Part shown: positions 5,332 to 32,776 of the stretch, one piece after another | Layout of the letters: the number at the start of each line of letters is the position of its first letter | Numbering within the stretch: position 1 is the stretch's first letter | NCBI GenBank assembly: GCA_021775575.1 | Contig: JAJFHO010000237.1 | Coordinates: 1-38,793 of the forward strand | Reading direction: 5' to 3' | Source: Hyphomicrobiales bacterium | GTDB lineage: Bacteria > Pseudomonadota > Alphaproteobacteria > Rhizobiales > Methyloligellaceae | DNA: 38,793 bases | Translations under genes and position numbers: made by a program | The notes under the pieces: generated by a model | Database searches by the model: none | What the model was told of the DNA's origin: nothing | The model's input: the letters and a program-made list of their open reading frames with translations, nothing else

Positions 5332-6704
5332 TCCCCCGCCTTTGCTTCGGGCTCGGACGCCTGAATTTCGGTCGGGTCGACATTCTTGGCGATACGCACA
5401 CGGGCCACGCGGTGCCCCTTCATCTCCAGCACGGTCGCGGCATGGCCGTCGACGACGACGGTGTCGTTCGTACGCGGCAAGCGGTCGAGATGGCGAAAGA
5501 CGACCCCGCCGATCGTTGTCATCCGGGGATCTTCAATACCGAAATTGGTGAGATCGTTGAAGTCCGTCAGCTTCATGTCGCCGGGAACCTCGTAATCATT
5601 CTCGTCCTGCTCCTGATAATAGGCCTGGCTCGATACGCTCTCGGAAATCTCGCCGAAGATAAACTTGATGATGTCACGCATGGTGATCAGCCCGTCGACA
5701 CCGCCAAATTCGTTCAGAACGATCGCGGCGCGGGCATTGTTCGCCTGGAAGAAATCGAACATTTCGTCGACATTCTTGGTTGGCGGCACGACGACCGGTG
5801 GATGCATAATATCTTCCGCGCTCAGCGCATTGAGGTCGGCGCCGTCCATGGTCCAGCGCAGGACGTCTTCGGCATGCAGGAAGCCGACAAAATCATCGGC
5901 GCGGTCGCGGCAGATAGGCACGCGTGGATGCTGGAACGCCTTGAATTGCTCGAACATCTCCGGCACAGATGTGTCGATATCCAGAAATTCAATCCGGGTT
6001 CTGGGAGTCATGATTTCGACGATTTCCGTCTCGCCGGCCTCGAGAAGATTGTCGATGAGCACGCGCTCGGTCGCATCAAGCACGCCTTCCTCGGCCACGT
6101 CTTCCAGAACCGCGCGGAATTCATCGACCCGCAGGATGTTTTCAGGCGCCTGCTCGCCGCCGACAATCCAGGTGGTGATGCTGCCGGCGGCCACGCGAAC
6201 GGCGCGCCGGAGCGGCGTAATGATACGGCTCCACACGGCCAGCGGCGACGCAACAATGCCGGTGCTGATGCGGATGGGATTGCTCGCGGAGATCGTTTTC
6301 GGCGTCACTTCTCCGAACAGCAGCAGCAGTGGAAACATGATGATGATGTTGATCCACCCGGCCTGTTCCGGCCCATAGAGCGCCAGCAAGATGCCGGCCA
6401 TATTGACCGTCGCGGCGACGTTGACCAGTTCGTTTCCGCAGAGGATCGAAATAATCAGCCGCCGTGGCTCGTCCAGCAATGCGTGCAGGGTTTCAGATTT
6501 CGGATGGCGCTCCCGGCGAAGCTTCTGCAGGTCCAATCGCGACAGCGAAAACAGCGCCGTCTCGGCCCCGGAAAAAAACGCCGAACATCCGAACAGAACC
6601 ATTTGCAGGATCAGTCGCGCCACCATGGTCGGCTCGAGCAGGCGCGCGATATCGACCGAGAAGAAGGCGGCGACATAATTCCAATATGAACCGATGTCGA
6701 ACAC
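5328..6704 (-). CDS. HlyC/CorC (CNNM-type) transporter, first gene of the ppk2 operon
   Basis: A 458-residue paralogue of the next gene with the same order of parts: CNNM/DUF21 membrane domain (CSAFFSGAETALFSLSRLDL, LFGEVTPKTIS), two CBS domains (IVLNEFGGVDGLITMRDIIKFIFGEI) and a CorC_HlyC domain (TTIGGVVFRHLDRLP). Expected role is Mg2+ or Co2+ transport or its regulation at the inner membrane. The start is set at the GTG at 6704, which has AGGGGAGGG just upstream. A GTG at 6761 in the same frame has no ribosome site and would add a polar, non-conserved leader. It overlaps the next gene by 4 bp (ATGA). An FNR-like box with a suitably spaced -10 hexamer lies about 155 bp upstream (6859-6872). 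Confidence 0.9.
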   Translation of the reverse strand: MFDIGSYWNYVAAFFSVDIARLLEPTMVARLILQMVLFGCSAFFSGAETALFSLSRLDLQKLRRERHPKSETLHALLDEPRRLIISILCGNELVNVAATVNMAGILLALYGPEQAGWINIIIMFPLLLLFGEVTPKTISASNPIRISTGIVASPLAVWSRIITPLRRAVRVAAGSITTWIVGGEQAPENILRVDEFRAVLEDVAEEGVLDATERVLIDNLLEAGETEIVEIMTPRTRIEFLDIDTSVPEMFEQFKAFQHPRVPICRDRADDFVGFLHAEDVLRWTMDGADLNALSAEDIMHPPVVVPPTKNVDEMFDFFQANNARAAIVLNEFGGVDGLITMRDIIKFIFGEISESVSSQAYYQEQDENDYEVPGDMKLTDFNDLTNFGIEDPRMTTIGGVVFRHLDRLPRTNDTVVVDGHAATVLEMKGHRVARVRIAKNVDPTEIQASEPEAKAGE

Positions 6705-8096: not shown

Positions 8097-8777
8097 ATGG
8101 CTGGAAGTAACCCGTTTGCGAGTTTGTTTGGACGGTCGCCCTTTAAGCCCCTGCAGGAGCATATGCGCACCGTAAAAAAATGCGCTGCCCAGGTCACCAA
8201 GCTGTTCGAGGCGCTGTGTGAGGACGACCAGAAAAAGGTTGCGGAGATCAAGGAACGGATCTTCGAGCTTGAGAATGAAGCCGACGATATCAAGAACCAG
8301 CTGCGCGCACATCTTCCCAAGAGCCTGTTCATGCCGGTCGACCGGCGTGACCTGCTCGAAGTCCTCGACCTTCAGGATTCTATCGCCGACACCGCCCAGG
8401 ACATCGCCGGCCTTCTGGTCGAGCGAAAAATGGAGGTCGCGGAAGGGATGGCGCAGCCGCTGCTCAACATGGTGCGGCGTTGCGTCGATGCCTGCGACCA
8501 GGCGACACGCATCATCGAACGCCTGGACGAGCTGGTGGAAACCGGTTTCCGGGGACCCGAGTCCGACGCCGTGATCGAGATGGTCGAGCAACTGAACAAG
8601 ATCGAATCGGACACCGACCAGATGGGGCTGGAGCTGGCGCGCAGCCTGTTTGTCCATGAAGACAGCATGAACGCTGTGTCCGTGGTGTTCTGGTACGACC
8701 TGATCCGGATGATCGGCGAGTTGGCCGACTATGCCGAAAAAGTCGGAAATCGTTTGCGGCTGTTGCTCGCACGTTAA
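8097..8777 (+). CDS. PhoU-like DUF47 protein (Pit accessory)
   Basis: A 226-residue all-helical cytoplasmic protein of the DUF47/TIGR00153 family, a relative of PhoU. The family signature ELENEADDIKNQLR lies at about 57-70 and a second PhoU-like motif (MIGELADYAEKVGNRL) near the C-terminus. These acidic E-x-x-AD motifs bind metal clusters in PhoU proteins. Members are almost always next to Pit phosphate transporters and are thought to control them, and here pit starts 18 bp downstream, making a two-gene operon. GGGAG lies 9 nt before the ATG. No terminator is seen between the HhH-lysine gene and this one (238 bp), so read-through from the FNR-type promoter is possible. Confidence 0.92.
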   Translation: MAGSNPFASLFGRSPFKPLQEHMRTVKKCAAQVTKLFEALCEDDQKKVAEIKERIFELENEADDIKNQLRAHLPKSLFMPVDRRDLLEVLDLQDSIADTAQDIAGLLVERKMEVAEGMAQPLLNMVRRCVDACDQATRIIERLDELVETGFRGPESDAVIEMVEQLNKIESDTDQMGLELARSLFVHEDSMNAVSVVFWYDLIRMIGELADYAEKVGNRLRLLLAR

Positions 8778-12375: not shown

Positions 12376-15300
12376 TCAGCGTGTCGACCGCCGTGCGATA
12401 GCCTTGGGCCGGAGCAGTTGTTTCTGCCGCGCCTCCTGATGACGGACCTCCGCGGCGTCGATCATCGCCTGTTGACAACCAGGCTCGGTCTTTCCACTCA
12501 GGGGCTGGCGTTGCTTATAGCCTCCTTCGGAATCCATTTCCCAAACGTTGCGCCGGTCGTTCAACTGCGCTTCCAGACAGCTGCGCAGCCGATCGCGCAG
12601 AGGCTCGTCCTCGATTGCAACGAGGACTTCGGCGCGGCGCTCCAGATTGCGCATCATGAGATCGGCGGAACCGATATAGAATTCCTCATCGCCGCCATTG
12701 TGGAAATAATAGATCCGCGCATGCTCGAGAAACCGCCCGACGACGCTAACCACGGTGATGTTGTCGGAAAGTCCCGGTATTCCGGGCCGCAAGCGGCAGG
12801 TATCGCGGATTATCAGCTCTACCTTCACGCCGACGCGTGACGCCCGGTAAAGGGCTTCGGTGATATCGGGGTCCTCCAGCGCATTTGTCTTCAGCCGGAT
12901 CAAACCGCGAGAACGCGTCGAATTCTTGGAAATCTCCCGATCTATCTTGCTGAGAAGCCGGTCCTTCATGTTGCGCGGCGACACCAGGATTTTCGAATAA
13001 TGGCGCAGCGGCTGACAGCCGGAGGTCAGGAAGTTGAAGAAATCGCCGATTTCAGCGCCAATTTTGCTGTTACAGGTCAGCAACCCGAAATCCACGTAAA
13101 GCCGCGCCGTACCGGCATGGTAATTGCCGGTGCCAATATGGGCATAGTGGCGCAAGCCGTCGAAATCCCGGCGGATCACGAGAACGAGCTTGGAATGGGT
13201 CTTGAGGCCGACGACGCCGTAAGTGACGTGAATCCCGGCTTCTTCAAGACGGGTCGCCCAATTGATATTGGCGGCCTCGTCGAAACGGGCCTTGAGTTCG
13301 ACCGCGACCGCGACTTGCTTGCCGTTGCGCGCCGCCTCGATCAGGTAGTCGATGATCCCCGTACCCTCCGTCGTCCGGTACAAAGTCATCTTGATCGCCA
13401 TCACCTTGGGGTCCTGACAGGCCTCGCGGACAAAGCGTACGACAGAGGTCTTGAAGGATTCATAGGGGTGATGGAGAAGGAAAGGCCCCTTGTTGCGAAT
13501 GGCGTGAAAAATGTTCGGCTCGCCTTCGATTTCGACATTGTCGATAGCGTGGTGGTCCGGGTCGTGCAGCTCGGAAACGTTGACCCCCGCGATTTCGAAC
13601 AGATCGCACATGCCCAGCATGACGTCGCTTTCGAAGACGTCTTCATCCTCGTCGAGACCAAGTTCGGCGGCAAGCATGCCGCGATGGACCGATTTGATGC
13701 CCGTTGCCGTTTCGAGACGCACGATCGGGGCGAATTTGCGGTCGCGGACCTCGCCCTCGATCATTTCCAGAAGATCGTCGGCGGTTTCCTCCTCGCGTTC
13801 CGTGTTCGCGTTGCGCGTTACTCTGAATACCTCGCACGTCGTCACTTCGACATCTTGGAACAGAACGTCGAGATTGTTGGCCATGACGTCTTCAAGCAGG
13901 ACGAACCGGTTGGTTGAGCCAACGGGAATGAACCGCGGCACATTATTGCCCGTCGGCACTTTGACGCGGGCCATGATGGGCGTCGCTTCGCCTTGGGTGC
14001 GGAGCGTGACCAGCAGATTCAAGGACAGATTCGAAATATGCGGGAAGGGATGGGCCGGATCCATGGCGAGCGGCGTGACCAGCGGGTAGATATTTTCCAG
14101 ATAGTAGGCGCGCACGCCGGCCTGTTCGTCTTCCAGCAAATCCGCGTAATCGCAAATGGCGATATCCCGCCGATGAAGACGCTCTTTAAGATCAAGAAAA
14201 ATAGTTCTGGCCCTGGCTTGAATGTCGCGGACCAACGCCACGCAGTCTTGGATTTGATCCTGAGGACTGCGGCCATCGACGGTACGTTCGTGGATGCCGG
14301 CGCCGACCTGCTGCTTCAATCCACCGATCCGTTTCATGAAGAACTCGTCGAGGTTGCCGCCGACGATGGCCAGGAATTTCACGCGCTCCAGCAAAGGCGT
14401 GCGGTCATCTTCGGCCTCGTGCAAAACACGCCTGTTGAACTCGAGCCAGGTCAGTTCACGGTTCAGGTAAAGTTCAGGCGCTTTCAGGTATTTTCCGGTT
14501 TCGGCTTCCGAGCGGGCGGCTTTTTCCGCCGCCTCGCTGGCTCTCAGGGCGGCGCGTTCCGCAGCCGCCTTCGATGCCGCGGCAGCGTGGGCGGCAGCGG
14601 CGGCCTCTGATTTTTCAGCCGCTTTCGCCGAGGCGCGTGTATCGTCCACCGCCGCTTTCGTTTCCGTGCGCGCTTCGCCGACCGTGGCCTTGGCCATGCT
14701 CAACGACTGTCCCGCCTGCTTGTTTCCGCCGCGAACCGCGTTTTCCGCCTTCTTAGCCGCCAGTTCGGTTCTCTTCACCGCATGGGCAGCTTCCTTGACT
14801 TTTTCCGCCGCCGCCACGGCCTCGGCCTTGGCTTGGCTGGCCAGCGCCGCCACCTTCATTGCCGCCGCCTCCGCCGCGGCTTCCTTTGCCTCCGCTTCCT
14901 TGGCGAGCTTTACGCAGCGCCGCATGGATGACTTGGTTGACCGCTCTGCCGGCTTTCCGGTCCGTTCCGCCTGGGCAAGCTCGATTTCAGCGCCCTTGGC
15001 CTTGGCTGCCGCCTTGATCGCAGCCGTCTCCGTTTTGCGGGCATCAGCGGCGGCCGATTCGCTCTCGGACGCCAATTTCGCGGCGCGTGCGGCCATCTGC
15101 TCTGCCGCGCTCGCGGCTTTTGCTGCTGCCTTGGCCTCCTTGTCCGCCGTCGCAACGGCGCGGCTGAGCGGCGTTCGGGGATGCCCGCGTTCGGCTTCAG
15201 CCAAAGAGGCTTTGGTCGCCTCTTTGGTCTTCGCCACGGATTTCGCGGCGTGTGCCGTCTGATCGGCGGCCTTGGACGCCTTCTTGCGTGACTTGGTCGC

Positions 15301-15417
15301 CGCCAAGGACGCCCGGTCGGCATTTGATTTGGTGAACCGCGTCTCCGGAGAGAGCAGGTTGCTTTCGATTTCTTCAGCACTCATCTTATTGATTGGGCGT
15401 ATATTTATTCTATGCAT
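12376..15417 (-). CDS. ppk1: Polyphosphate kinase 1 with a long Ala/Lys-rich N-terminal extension
   Basis: Makes polyphosphate from ATP, reversibly. Residue numbers count from the upstream GTG at 15480 (1034 aa); from the preferred ATG at 15417 subtract 21. The PPK1 core runs from about 338 (YLNRELTWLEFNRRVLHEA) to 990. H762 in GLKTHSK is the autophosphorylated histidine and H920 in FLEHARIYYFHNG the likely second catalytic one. NLDEFFMKRIGGLK and the HIGTGNYH motif are intact. Residues 45-330 are an Ala/Lys/Glu-rich helical region, recalling histone-H1-like AlgP or phasin-type repeats, whereas ordinary PPK1 is about 700 aa. The 15417 ATG follows eight Gs and lies downstream of the predicted FNR-type start site (about 15465), which would exclude the GTG. 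A third start at 15384 is possible. It leads the operon with the P-loop and FHA-phosphatase genes. Confidence 0.95.
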   Translation of the reverse strand: MHRINIRPINKMSAEEIESNLLSPETRFTKSNADRASLAATKSRKKASKAADQTAHAAKSVAKTKEATKASLAEAERGHPRTPLSRAVATADKEAKAAAKAASAAEQMAARAAKLASESESAAADARKTETAAIKAAAKAKGAEIELAQAERTGKPAERSTKSSMRRCVKLAKEAEAKEAAAEAAAMKVAALASQAKAEAVAAAEKVKEAAHAVKRTELAAKKAENAVRGGNKQAGQSLSMAKATVGEARTETKAAVDDTRASAKAAEKSEAAAAAHAAAASKAAAERAALRASEAAEKAARSEAETGKYLKAPELYLNRELTWLEFNRRVLHEAEDDRTPLLERVKFLAIVGGNLDEFFMKRIGGLKQQVGAGIHERTVDGRSPQDQIQDCVALVRDIQARARTIFLDLKERLHRRDIAICDYADLLEDEQAGVRAYYLENIYPLVTPLAMDPAHPFPHISNLSLNLLVTLRTQGEATPIMARVKVPTGNNVPRFIPVGSTNRFVLLEDVMANNLDVLFQDVEVTTCEVFRVTRNANTEREEETADDLLEMIEGEVRDRKFAPIVRLETATGIKSVHRGMLAAELGLDEDEDVFESDVMLGMCDLFEIAGVNVSELHDPDHHAIDNVEIEGEPNIFHAIRNKGPFLLHHPYESFKTSVVRFVREACQDPKVMAIKMTLYRTTEGTGIIDYLIEAARNGKQVAVAVELKARFDEAANINWATRLEEAGIHVTYGVVGLKTHSKLVLVIRRDFDGLRHYAHIGTGNYHAGTARLYVDFGLLTCNSKIGAEIGDFFNFLTSGCQPLRHYSKILVSPRNMKDRLLSKIDREISKNSTRSRGLIRLKTNALEDPDITEALYRASRVGVKVELIIRDTCRLRPGIPGLSDNITVVSVVGRFLEHARIYYFHNGGDEEFYIGSADLMMRNLERRAEVLVAIEDEPLRDRLRSCLEAQLNDRRNVWEMDSEGGYKQRQPLSGKTEPGCQQAMIDAAEVRHQEARQKQLLRPKAIARRSTR

Positions 15418-15470
15418 ACCCCCCCCTTCGTCCATGACAGGGAACAAATGCGACAAAATTGACAAACCGC

Positions 15471-15512
15471 TTTTTATCACAAAGCGGCCCAGAGCGTATT
15501 AATCTAGGTCAA
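15471..15512 (-). promoter_or_regulatory. FNR/FixK-type promoter for ppk1
   Basis: On the minus strand the box (15512-15499) reads TTGAC-CTAG-ATTAA, one mismatch from TTGAY-N4-RTCAA. A -10-like TAAAAA (15476-15471, overlapping GATAAA) begins exactly 22 nt beyond it. The plus-strand direction, towards the dioxygenase gene, has no -10 at this distance. The predicted start near 15465 lies upstream of the ATG at 15417. Confidence 0.5.
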
Positions 15513-15738: not shown

Positions 15739-16605
15739 GTGACAGGAAGCAGCCAAATTTCGGTCAGACGGCTAACCGGCGGTGTCGGCGCCGAGATCAC
15801 CGGAGCCGACCTTGCCGACATCGGGGACGGCGCGGCCTTCGAGAATATTCATCAGGCCTTCCTCGATCATGGCGTTCTGGTGTTCCGGAAGCAGCGGCTC
15901 GAACCGGACGAGCTCGTCGCCTTCAGCTCCAGGTTCGGACCGCTCGAGCAGCATGTCCTGAAGCAGTTCGCATTGCCGGAGAATCCGGACGTCTTCCTTG
16001 TCTCGAATGTCAAGGACAAGGGCAAAGCCGTCGGGGCAATCCGGGCCGGACAATATTGGCACACCGACTGCTCCTATATGGAGCGCCCGACAATGGCTTC
16101 TCTGCTATACGCGCTCGACGTGCCAAGCCACGGCGGCGATACCATGTTCGCCAGCATGGTCCGGGCTTATGAGGAACTGTCCGATACCATGAAAGCCCTG
16201 CTCGCAAATCTCAGGGCCGTTCACGACTACACCAACGCCTATGACACTTTTTTCGCCAAATTTCCCGACCGGCCGCCGCTTTCGGAACAGGAGAAGGCCA
16301 AGGTTCCGCCCGTCGAGCATCCGCTGGTCCGGACGCATCCCGAAACCGGATATAAGGCGCTCTTCGTCAATCCCGGATTCACCCGCAGGATCGCCGGCCT
16401 GACGGAGGAGGAAAGCCGCGCCATCCTCGACTTCCTGTTCAAGCACGCCCAGCAACCACATTTTGTCTACCGGCATATCTGGGCGGCGGGCGATCTGGTG
16501 ATGTGGGACAACCGCGCGACATGGCATCTTGCGGTGGCGGATTATCCGATGGACGAGCGCCGCCACCTGCACCGCACCAGTGTCGCGGGCGACAAGCCCC
16601 GCTAG
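15739..16605 (+). CDS. TauD/TfdA-family Fe(II)/2-oxoglutarate dioxygenase
   Basis: A 288-residue cytoplasmic enzyme that couples 2-oxoglutarate decarboxylation to oxidation of a small substrate. The iron triad is visible as H108 and D110 in YWHTDCSY and H263 in WDNRATWH, and R279 (HLHRTSV) should hold 2-oxoglutarate. Length matches the TauD/TfdA family. The start is a GTG at 15739 with GGAG 7 nt upstream, and no ATG precedes the conserved RRLTGGVGAEITGADL opening. It stands alone, divergent from ppk1, with no sulfonate or aryloxyacid transport genes beside it, so the substrate (taurine, alkylsulfate, 2,4-D-like or other) cannot be named. Confidence 0.9.
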   Translation: MTGSSQISVRRLTGGVGAEITGADLADIGDGAAFENIHQAFLDHGVLVFRKQRLEPDELVAFSSRFGPLEQHVLKQFALPENPDVFLVSNVKDKGKAVGAIRAGQYWHTDCSYMERPTMASLLYALDVPSHGGDTMFASMVRAYEELSDTMKALLANLRAVHDYTNAYDTFFAKFPDRPPLSEQEKAKVPPVEHPLVRTHPETGYKALFVNPGFTRRIAGLTEEESRAILDFLFKHAQQPHFVYRHIWAAGDLVMWDNRATWHLAVADYPMDERRHLHRTSVAGDKPR

Positions 16606-16797
16606 GGCTGCCCCGGCAGGCGCCTCGCGCCAGAACCTGGTCCGCGGGATCGCGTTGCTGAAGCAGAGCGGCACAGGCGGAAACTTGCCGAAGAAGGACC
16701 TGGACCCCTACTCTATCCCCTTGCGAGCCGATTTTCCGTTTGGGCAATATGATCTATGTCAGGTTTTGCCGCCGCGCAGAATGTTATTCGGATAACC

Positions 16798-16891
16798 GGC
16801 AGCCTGAAGCGGCTACTCTCTCCTTCTTCCTCCTCCCCGGAGGTTCGGCTGCCAAGTATAGAGGCCGGACTTCGTGTCCGGCTTCTTTTTT
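16798..16891 (+). ncRNA. Candidate cuckoo-type small RNA with CCUCCUCCC motif
   Basis: The exact anti-Shine-Dalgarno motif CCTCCTCCC occurs at 16829-16837. It lies in the loop of a hairpin closed by GGCAGCC (16798-16804) and GGCTGCC (16847-16853). An intrinsic terminator follows at once (16862-16891). A loop-exposed CCUCCUCCC followed by a terminator hairpin is the layout of the alphaproteobacterial CcsR/alpha-r14 (cuckoo) RNAs, which act on mRNAs in stress responses. No DUF1127 gene precedes it, unlike in Rhodobacter. The 5' end is not defined, and I found no clear promoter. Confidence 0.55.
16862..16891 (+). terminator. Rho-independent terminator of the candidate small RNA
   Basis: GCCGGAC (16864-16870) pairs with GTCCGGC (16876-16882) around TTCGT. 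A further A-T and G-U pair extend the stem, and CTTTTTT follows to 16891. It may also end transcripts of the dioxygenase gene 257 bp upstream. Confidence 0.85.
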
Positions 16892-17011
16892 GTTCAAGTT
16901 TTTTCGTAAGGCAAAAGCATCCAGTGTGGCTGCCTTCTTTCTGACACAGAAAATTAACACGCTTGGTTGAGCCTGAAGGTCTCAATATCTGTTTTACCGG
17001 AAGGTCTGAAC

Positions 17012-17110
17012 ATGTCTGAACGACTAAGGGCACTGTCGTTGCGCGTGTTTCTTACCAGCAGCCTACTTTACAGCGCTATCTGGCTGGGCAGCTATATCGG
17101 CTCGGGTTAG
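17012..17110 (+). CDS. Possible 32-aa hydrophobic small protein
   Basis: The ATG at 17012 is preceded by GGAAGG with a 7-nt spacer, a near-ideal ribosome site, and the frame closes with TAG at 17110. The product starts with a short basic amphipathic segment (MSERLRALSLRVF) followed by about 16 hydrophobic residues (LTSSLLYSAIWLGSYIG), so it would sit in the membrane with a single helix. I do not recognise a family. It lies 120 bp after the small-RNA terminator and convergent with the cyclase gene. The strong ribosome site and membrane-like composition favour a real gene, but 32 codons can arise by chance. Confidence 0.45.
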   Translation: MSERLRALSLRVFLTSSLLYSAIWLGSYIGSG

Positions 17111-17453
17111 CTGAGAAGCCAACGACGACACCCATCTAGAAGCTGACGGACCTGGTTCCGGGTGCCGGTCCTCTATTTGCCCCATGTGGTGTCATATCCG
17201 CCCTGTCCCGGCGACGCGGCCGGCGTCACAAGCCCGGATGCACGCGGTGCGGTTCGCGGAGGGCACAAAACGGGCGATCGAGGGGCTGGCGAAAAGGTGA
17301 GGAGCAGCGTTTGCAGATGTGTGCTTTGGGTCAGAAGCGGTCGCCTGGAAGCTGCCCTTTGCACGTCCGCTTTGCACCCAGGAGCAGACTCCCTTCAGTT
17401 TGGTACTGAACGTCCGCCAAGTGACAGAAGCAGACATGTGCCGGACTTCACAG
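17111..17453. other. Intergenic region containing a GTCCGCTTT-type repeat
   Basis: No gene is supported here. The segment from about 17321 to 17400 contains GTGCTTTGGGTCAGAAGCGG and GTCCGCTTTG (17365-17374), words that recur on the other side of the cyclase gene (CTTTGGGT at 19331 and GTCCGCTTT at 19372). This suggests that related repeat material flanks the cyclase. Confidence 0.5.
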
Positions 17454-31383: not shown

Positions 31384-32676
31384 ATGACAAGATTGTCTTC
31401 GATTTGCACGCTGCTGGCGGCAGCCGCTCTTATGCTTCTGGCATTCGCCGCGCCCGCGCTGGCGCAGGATGCGGCGAAACCGGACAGCGGCGACACGGCG
31501 TGGATGCTCACCTCCACCCTGCTCGTGTTGATGATGACGGTTCCCGGGCTGGCGCTGTTTTACGGCGGCATGGTGCGCAAGAAAAACGTTCTCGCCACCG
31601 TGATGCAGAGCTTCGCGGTCTGCTGCCTGGCGAGCGTGCTGTGGATGATGGTGGGTTACTCGCTCGCCTTTACCGATGGCGGCGCGATGAATGCCTATGT
31701 CGGCGGCCTGTCAAAAATATTCCTCGCCGGCATGACGGTGGATTCGCTCACCGGGACGATTCCGGAATCCGTCTTCATGACGTTCCAGATGACCTTCGCG
31801 ATCATAACGCCGGCGCTGATTTGCGGTGCCTTTGCGGACCGCATGAAATTCTCCGCGATGCTGCTGTTTCTCGGGCTCTGGATCATTGTCGTCTACGCGC
31901 CGATCACCCATTGGGTGTGGGGCGGCGGCTTCCTCGGCGGCGTGGGTGTCCTCGATTTCGCCGGCGGCACGGTCGTTCACATCAATTCCGGCGTCGCCGG
32001 GCTCGTCGCCGCACTGGTTCTCGGCCGGCGGCACGGCTACGGCACGGAGAATATGGCGCCCCACAATCTGGTGCTCTCCGTCATCGGCGCTTCGCTGCTG
32101 TGGGTCGGCTGGTTCGGGTTCAACGCCGGGTCCGCCGTCGCCGCGAACGGCGCCGCGGGCATGGCCATGGCCGTCACGCAAATCTGCGCCGCCACCGCCG
32201 CGCTTGCCTGGATGTTCGCCGAATGGGTCGTGCTGAAGAAGCCCAGCGTTCTGGGAATAGTTTCCGGCGCCGTGGCGGGGCTGGTTGCGATCACACCCGC
32301 CTCCGGCTTCGTGGACCCGATGGGCGCCTTGTTCATCGGCATCGCGGCGGGCCTGATCTGCTTTATCGCCTCGGTAAAGGTAAAGCACGCCTTCGGCTAT
32401 GACGACTCGCTCGACGTCTTCGGAATACATGGCGTCGGCGGCATCGTCGGTGCCATCCTCACCGGCGTCTTCGCGGTCGAGGCAATCGGCGGAACGGCGG
32501 GAAGCCCGGCTCAGGTCCTCATCCAGATCGAGGGCATCGCGGCGACCATCGCCTGGTCCGGCATCGCCTCATTCGTTATTCTCAAGGCGATCGACATGAC
32601 GATCGGCCTGCGGGTCGAGCGGAATGACGAGATTGAAGGCCTCGACATCAATCTGCATGGCGAGGTCGTGCAATAA
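31384..32676 (+). CDS. amtB: Ammonium transporter AmtB
   Basis: A 430-residue inner-membrane ammonium channel. A signal peptide of about 27 residues (ends APALA-QD) is followed by eleven helices. The twin pore histidines are H176 (THWVWGGGF) and H349 (FGIHGVGG), and the entry region FYGGMVRKKN is intact. The ATG at 31384 (AGGGG upstream) is chosen; a longer frame begins at 31192 but overlaps glnK. Translation closely follows glnK. A strong terminator lies 33 bp after the stop. Confidence 0.97.
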   Translation: MTRLSSICTLLAAAALMLLAFAAPALAQDAAKPDSGDTAWMLTSTLLVLMMTVPGLALFYGGMVRKKNVLATVMQSFAVCCLASVLWMMVGYSLAFTDGGAMNAYVGGLSKIFLAGMTVDSLTGTIPESVFMTFQMTFAIITPALICGAFADRMKFSAMLLFLGLWIIVVYAPITHWVWGGGFLGGVGVLDFAGGTVVHINSGVAGLVAALVLGRRHGYGTENMAPHNLVLSVIGASLLWVGWFGFNAGSAVAANGAAGMAMAVTQICAATAALAWMFAEWVVLKKPSVLGIVSGAVAGLVAITPASGFVDPMGALFIGIAAGLICFIASVKVKHAFGYDDSLDVFGIHGVGGIVGAILTGVFAVEAIGGTAGSPAQVLIQIEGIAATIAWSGIASFVILKAIDMTIGLRVERNDEIEGLDINLHGEVVQ

Positions 32677-32708
32677 CGCGCCTCGTCTGCCAGAATTCTC
32701 TTACAGTC

Positions 32709-32743
32709 CGGCCGCCCCCTTCCCCCGGGGCGGCCGTATTTTT
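32709..32743 (+). terminator. Rho-independent terminator after amtB
   Basis: CGGCCGCCCC (32709-32718) pairs perfectly with GGGGCGGCCG (32727-32736) around an 8-nt pyrimidine loop, followed by TATTTTT. Confidence 0.88.
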
Positions 32744-32776
32744 CGGCCCGCGCGGCCCGCTGTTCGAGGGCAATCG

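Follow-up and report, generated by a model that had tools for sequence, protein, structure and literature searches.

The window, the whole stretch of DNA that we analysed, spans 38,793 nucleotides and is the entire contig C154 of a 4.06-Mb Hyphomicrobiales genome in 281 contigs. It contains a gene for a TauD/TfdA-family dioxygenase, here called tauD, whose nearest matches, at 71-74% identity, come from Hyphomicrobiales metagenome-assembled genomes. About 190 nt 3' of its stop codon begins a short element in which a hairpin carrying an anti-Shine-Dalgarno (anti-SD) motif is followed by an intrinsic terminator (Table 1). A possible open reading frame (ORF) for a membrane-type peptide starts ~120 nt 3' of the terminator; it had no homologues among 100 relatives and no Pfam matches. 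At the gathering level, a tRNA was the sole Rfam match in the window, and a plasmid search with the flanking region as query matched tauD alone. On the minus strand, at 12376-15480, lies a polyphosphate kinase gene whose product has an N-terminal extension of ~330 residues, rich in Ala, Lys and Glu, with the first PPK domain starting from residue 338.

Table 1. Features of the tauD 3' region, in window coordinates.
Feature	Position	Strand	Basis
TauD/TfdA-family dioxygenase gene	15739..16605	+	Pfam TauD, 256 bits
Outer hairpin, 7-bp stem GGCAGCC (16798-16804) / GGCTGCC (16847-16853)	16798..16853	+	sequence, fold
CCUCCUCCC anti-Shine-Dalgarno motif, exact CCTCCTCCC in DNA	16829..16837	+	sequence
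Inner hairpin CCUCC-UCCCC-GGAGG, half-masking the motif	16829..16843	+	pair probability
Intrinsic terminator AGAGGCCGGAC-UUCGU-GUCCGGCUUCU with U-tract	16860..16892	+	sequence, fold
Possible 32-aa membrane-type ORF (MSERLRALSLRVFLTSSLLYSAIWLGSYIGSG)	17012..17110	+	GGAAGG upstream; sequence only

A preliminary description of this DNA had placed an exact CCTCCTCCC motif in the loop of a hairpin closed by 7 bp. The motif is present as the single copy in the window, where shuffling expects 0.26 and 24 of 100 shuffles contain one. The 7-bp stem stands as described, but the motif within its C/U-rich 42-nt loop is not fully open, since CCUCC (16829-16833) pairs with GGAGG (16839-16843). This inner pairing has a probability of 0.90-0.99 for transcripts starting at 16745-16796 and of 0.34 to 0.90 for the remaining starts tried. 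Because CCUCC is taken up in it, the UCCC of the motif is the only part that stays constantly open. With a start at 16700, the transcript is predicted to fold without the outer stem. The fold of the 100-nt RNA reaches -44.3 kcal/mol (z -4.2), lower than 200 of 200 shuffles, and without the terminator z is just -2.1 to -2.6.

The strong intrinsic terminator reported behind the hairpin was also borne out. In the DNA it reads AGAGGCCGGAC-TTCGT-GTCCGGCTTCTTTTTTG, with an 11-pair stem (16860-16886) followed by a T-run. Within 16550-17200 there are only two plus-strand terminators, this one and another at 17152. As it is the first after the tauD stop codon, the element is probably part of the tauD 3'UTR. 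Promoter consensus scans of five types gave nothing convincing, and none exceeded shuffles save a marginal EcfG-like match, itself equalled in 5 of 100 shuffles.

The element had been taken for a cuckoo-type small RNA with the layout of CcsR/alpha-r14 RNAs. Cuckoo RNAs have two to four adjacent hairpins with CCUCCUCCC in each loop (PMC4504443), and RNAs of the alpha-r14/CcsR type have several hairpins, again with the motif in each loop (PMC10746234; PMC3927594), so that published definitions of the cuckoo/ar14 group name two to four hairpins or three. The window element is like alpha-r14/NfeR1 (RF02344) and the cuckoo family in its exact CCUCCUCCC within a hairpin, its intrinsic terminator and its order, Rhizobiales. 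It differs from them in having one motif hairpin rather than two to four, with so large a loop and with half of the motif paired; the loop of the terminator is UUCGU. With the Rfam alpha-r14 covariance model the locus scored 17.2 bits (E 0.62) against a gathering threshold of 58.8, and it was absent from the seven matches that this model reported in its own genome at E up to 10. Membership in the ar14/CcsR/cuckoo family does not hold for the window element.

Comparison with other small RNAs of Alphaproteobacteria, in which 3'UTR-derived examples such as CcsR and SorX are known, gave a similar picture. CcsR1-4 of Rhodobacter sphaeroides, found with CcaF1 (DUF1127), originate in the 3'UTR of the DUF1127 gene. 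The window element resembles them in its probable 3'UTR origin and its C/U-rich anti-SD hairpin, but lacks the four-fold repeat and has tauD upstream instead of a DUF1127 gene. That such a gene is missing had been noted correctly: the DUF1127 genes of this genome lie on other contigs only (C21, C50, C254 and, weakly, C99). MmgR/suhB (RF00519), or alpha-r8, likewise combines an anti-SD motif with a GC-rich terminator in a short RNA, but the locus reaches 27.0 bits against a cut-off of 41, a score similar to those of several other sub-threshold places in the genome, whereas matches on C222 (65.5 bits) and C84 (52.4 bits) score higher. SorX of R. sphaeroides (RF02784) shares a hairpin, a very similar GGCCGG-type terminator and a 3'UTR origin with the element, but its motif differs and the score of 18.8 bits falls below the cut-off of 46.6.

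An array on contig C84 is more cuckoo-like than the window locus. Its tandem hairpins, CCGCCGCUCAUCCUCCCGAGCGGCG (6373-6473, minus strand), score 25.9 bits with the ar14 model, under the cut-off. Over 6290-6480 on the same strand (L186), tandem hairpins with AUCCUCCC loops are directly followed by an MmgR above the Rfam cut-off, and a possible 55-aa ORF, different from DUF1127, lies ahead of the array. An ar14 match on C65 was rejected as a further candidate, as the region around its motif has no terminator.

By blastn, the element had no homologues in 100 relatives, none of the genomes searched being of the same genus. Among the inspected matches of a covariance model built from this one sequence (R1), most were terminators and none carried the exact motif. 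In the four closest TauD orthologues (71-74% identity) the element is absent and the 3' ends are unrelated.

Searching the relatives with the ar14 model uncovered, in another genus of this family, an RNA with a single hairpin immediately 3' of amtB. A covariance model built from four copies (R2) then found this RNA, at 43-110 bits, in 17 genomes, 15 of genus g3 and 2 of genus g4 (G020, G002, G026, G023, G010, G018, G007, G014, G024, G016, G012, G025, G021, G008, G028, G003 and G029). Its loci (L254-L270) have CCUCCUCCC in the loop and a terminator; wherever the gene upstream was read, it was amtB, with the RNA immediately behind it. The loop, CUCCUCCUCCC, is nearly invariant across the 17 genomes, and compensatory changes occur at six predicted pairs of the RNAalifold consensus structure, three each for the motif hairpin and the terminator. 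Two of the loci (L254 and L267) gave no Rfam match at the gathering level. As the amtB RNA is kept in 17 genomes, the 3'UTR layout of one hairpin plus terminator without DUF1127 is conserved in the family. The layout claimed for the element thus survives in part: an anti-SD hairpin followed by a terminator and free of DUF1127 is an arrangement conserved after amtB, but with one hairpin and a half-paired motif it is not that of CcsR/alpha-r14 RNAs. If real, the amtB RNA would connect ammonium uptake with anti-SD riboregulation in a clean and testable way.

The window element and the amtB RNA are alike in having one CCUCCUCCC hairpin and then a terminator, in a 3'UTR and with no DUF1127. They differ in that the amtB RNA has a conserved sequence and gene context and holds its motif entirely within a 12-nt loop. 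With the amtB model, the window element ranked top over the window and six other stretches of its genome, at 13.2 bits (E 0.012-0.02) and after tauD, compared with 43-110 bits for the RNAs directly after amtB; at the motif, the alignment slips out of register. We claim a similarity of layout for the two, not homology. The window has an amtB of its own (matched at 31486-32673), and its 3'UTR, from 32677, lacks the amtB-type hairpin. The terminator loop in this 3'UTR (32677-32745) is almost pure C/U (CCCCCUUCCCCC) and is possibly a remnant or analogue of the anti-SD hairpin of the related genera.

We also asked how often such arrangements occur in the genome. The exact motif has 21 copies, compared with 35 of a reversed control, and is thus not itself enriched. 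A terminator lies within 100 nt 3' of 2 of the 21 copies, compared with 1.1% of positions in the same genome (P ~0.02). By chance, ~0.14 motifs per genome are expected within 60 nt upstream of any terminator. The half-masked hairpin, CCTCCTCCCN0-4GGAGG (CCTCCTCCCN{0,4}GGAGG), occurs three times in this genome (C96, C109 and C154) and its control not at all; in 150 relatives the counts are 36 and 29 for the control (sums by hand), and the own-genome excess has P ~0.002. Each of the three sits either outside any long gene or at the end of a gene. The copy on C96 is intergenic and is itself a terminator. That on C109 lies just past a stop codon and ahead of an ORF start; we rejected it as a 3'UTR with terminator, because its second hairpin overlaps the start of the downstream ORF, which makes an intercistronic position more likely. 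Together, the half-masked hairpin and motif-terminator statistics are suggestive, not strong.

These observations could well reflect, and we tentatively propose, an anti-SD RNA with a single hairpin, specific to this lineage and derived from the tauD 3'UTR, cuckoo-like in action and outside the curated families. In its favour we count the motif, stem and terminator themselves, the z of -4.2 with the terminator, the three half-masked hairpins of the genome, the conserved amtB layout, the top rank with the amtB model, the known 3'UTR-derived sRNAs and a GGGAGGAGG site before a TauD paralogue on C42. Against it stand the lack of homologues, the orthologues that lack the element, the want of a convincing promoter, the half-paired motif, the z of the hairpin alone and the low, out-of-register score with the amtB model. 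We slightly prefer this reading to that of a plain tauD terminator, which is a serious possibility in its own right. The element would then be an ordinary Rho-independent terminator, its C/U-rich stretch and 7-bp stem owed to chance or to 3'-end protection, with no regulation in trans. Its position as the first terminator after tauD fits this view, as do the unenriched motif (21 copies versus 35), the hairpin z of merely about -2, the lack of conservation and the ~0.14 chance pairs of motif and terminator per genome, a number that is non-negligible in a large scan. A 3'UTR of 255 nt is long for a plain terminator, however, and this view leaves aside the two further half-masked hairpins in the genome, one of them itself a terminator, and the conserved 3'UTR anti-SD hairpins of sister genera.

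Very unlikely is a role in cis, with the element serving the downstream 32-aa ORF as leader or attenuator. The ORF lies close by on the same strand, and a hairpin plus terminator can form an attenuator, but the ORF has neither homologues nor signs of expression, no alternative antiterminator fold was seen, and a 201-nt fold retains the terminator core. Least probable of all is a true but degenerate ar14/CcsR (cuckoo) member that has lost hairpins: the exact CCUCCUCCC before a terminator would agree with such a descent, and the tandem C84 array is a possible donor, but the ar14 score (17.2 bits versus 58.8), the absence from the own-genome ar14 matches, the single motif hairpin in place of two to four, a stem and loop unlike those of the C84 array and the lack of a DUF1127 neighbour all speak against it.

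If the element is an anti-SD RNA, then the terminator (16860-16891) would end either the tauD transcript itself or a short RNA begun at an unrecognised promoter within the 250 nt that follow tauD. The last 95-130 nt of this transcript are predicted to form two hairpins, a C/U-rich one and that of the terminator, and the small RNA would be freed by processing or arise from a local start. Opening from its UCCC loop, CCUCCUCCC may pair with strong Shine-Dalgarno sites (GGGAGGAGG) of mRNAs in trans. Such pairing would block ribosome binding, by analogy with NfeR1, whose anti-SD motifs silence ntrB by pairing at the ntrB translation start (PMC10746234).

At three sites in the genome that resemble translation starts (on C42, C146 and C200), GGGAGGAGG stands 5-11 nt ahead of an ATG. 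The site on C42 (3398-3406, plus strand) is fully complementary to the window motif, and 6 nt separate it from the ATG start codon of a TauD paralogue (45% identity). This paralogue is a possible target, a testable but post hoc hint; the site is equally available to whatever anti-SD RNA the cell makes. Energies of RNA duplexes with leaders mainly reflected long pairings with gaps, and they were set aside.

A broader and more doubtful idea is that in this family single cuckoo-type anti-SD hairpins have split from DUF1127 loci into the 3'UTRs of metabolic genes, of amtB in two genera and of tauD here. Whenever such a gene for nutrient uptake or metabolism is expressed, it would then also yield an RNA that tunes the translation of other genes, paralogues included. 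Should the proposed tauD RNA be real, one hairpin in a metabolic gene's 3'UTR would be enough for the cuckoo anti-SD module to function, with no DUF1127 partner, and searches tuned to two to four hairpins or to DUF1127 neighbours would overlook part of anti-SD regulation.

Two other loci came to light in the genome. On the minus strand of C96, at 16345-16424 (L191), an orphan intergenic candidate sRNA has a single-stranded CCCCCAACCCUCCUCC and then a terminator with CCUCCUCCC in its own stem-loop. An anti-SD-like candidate sRNA on the minus strand of C103, at 8279-8392 (L192), has a CCCCC-loop hairpin and, after it, a terminator whose loop is CUCCCCCUCCC.
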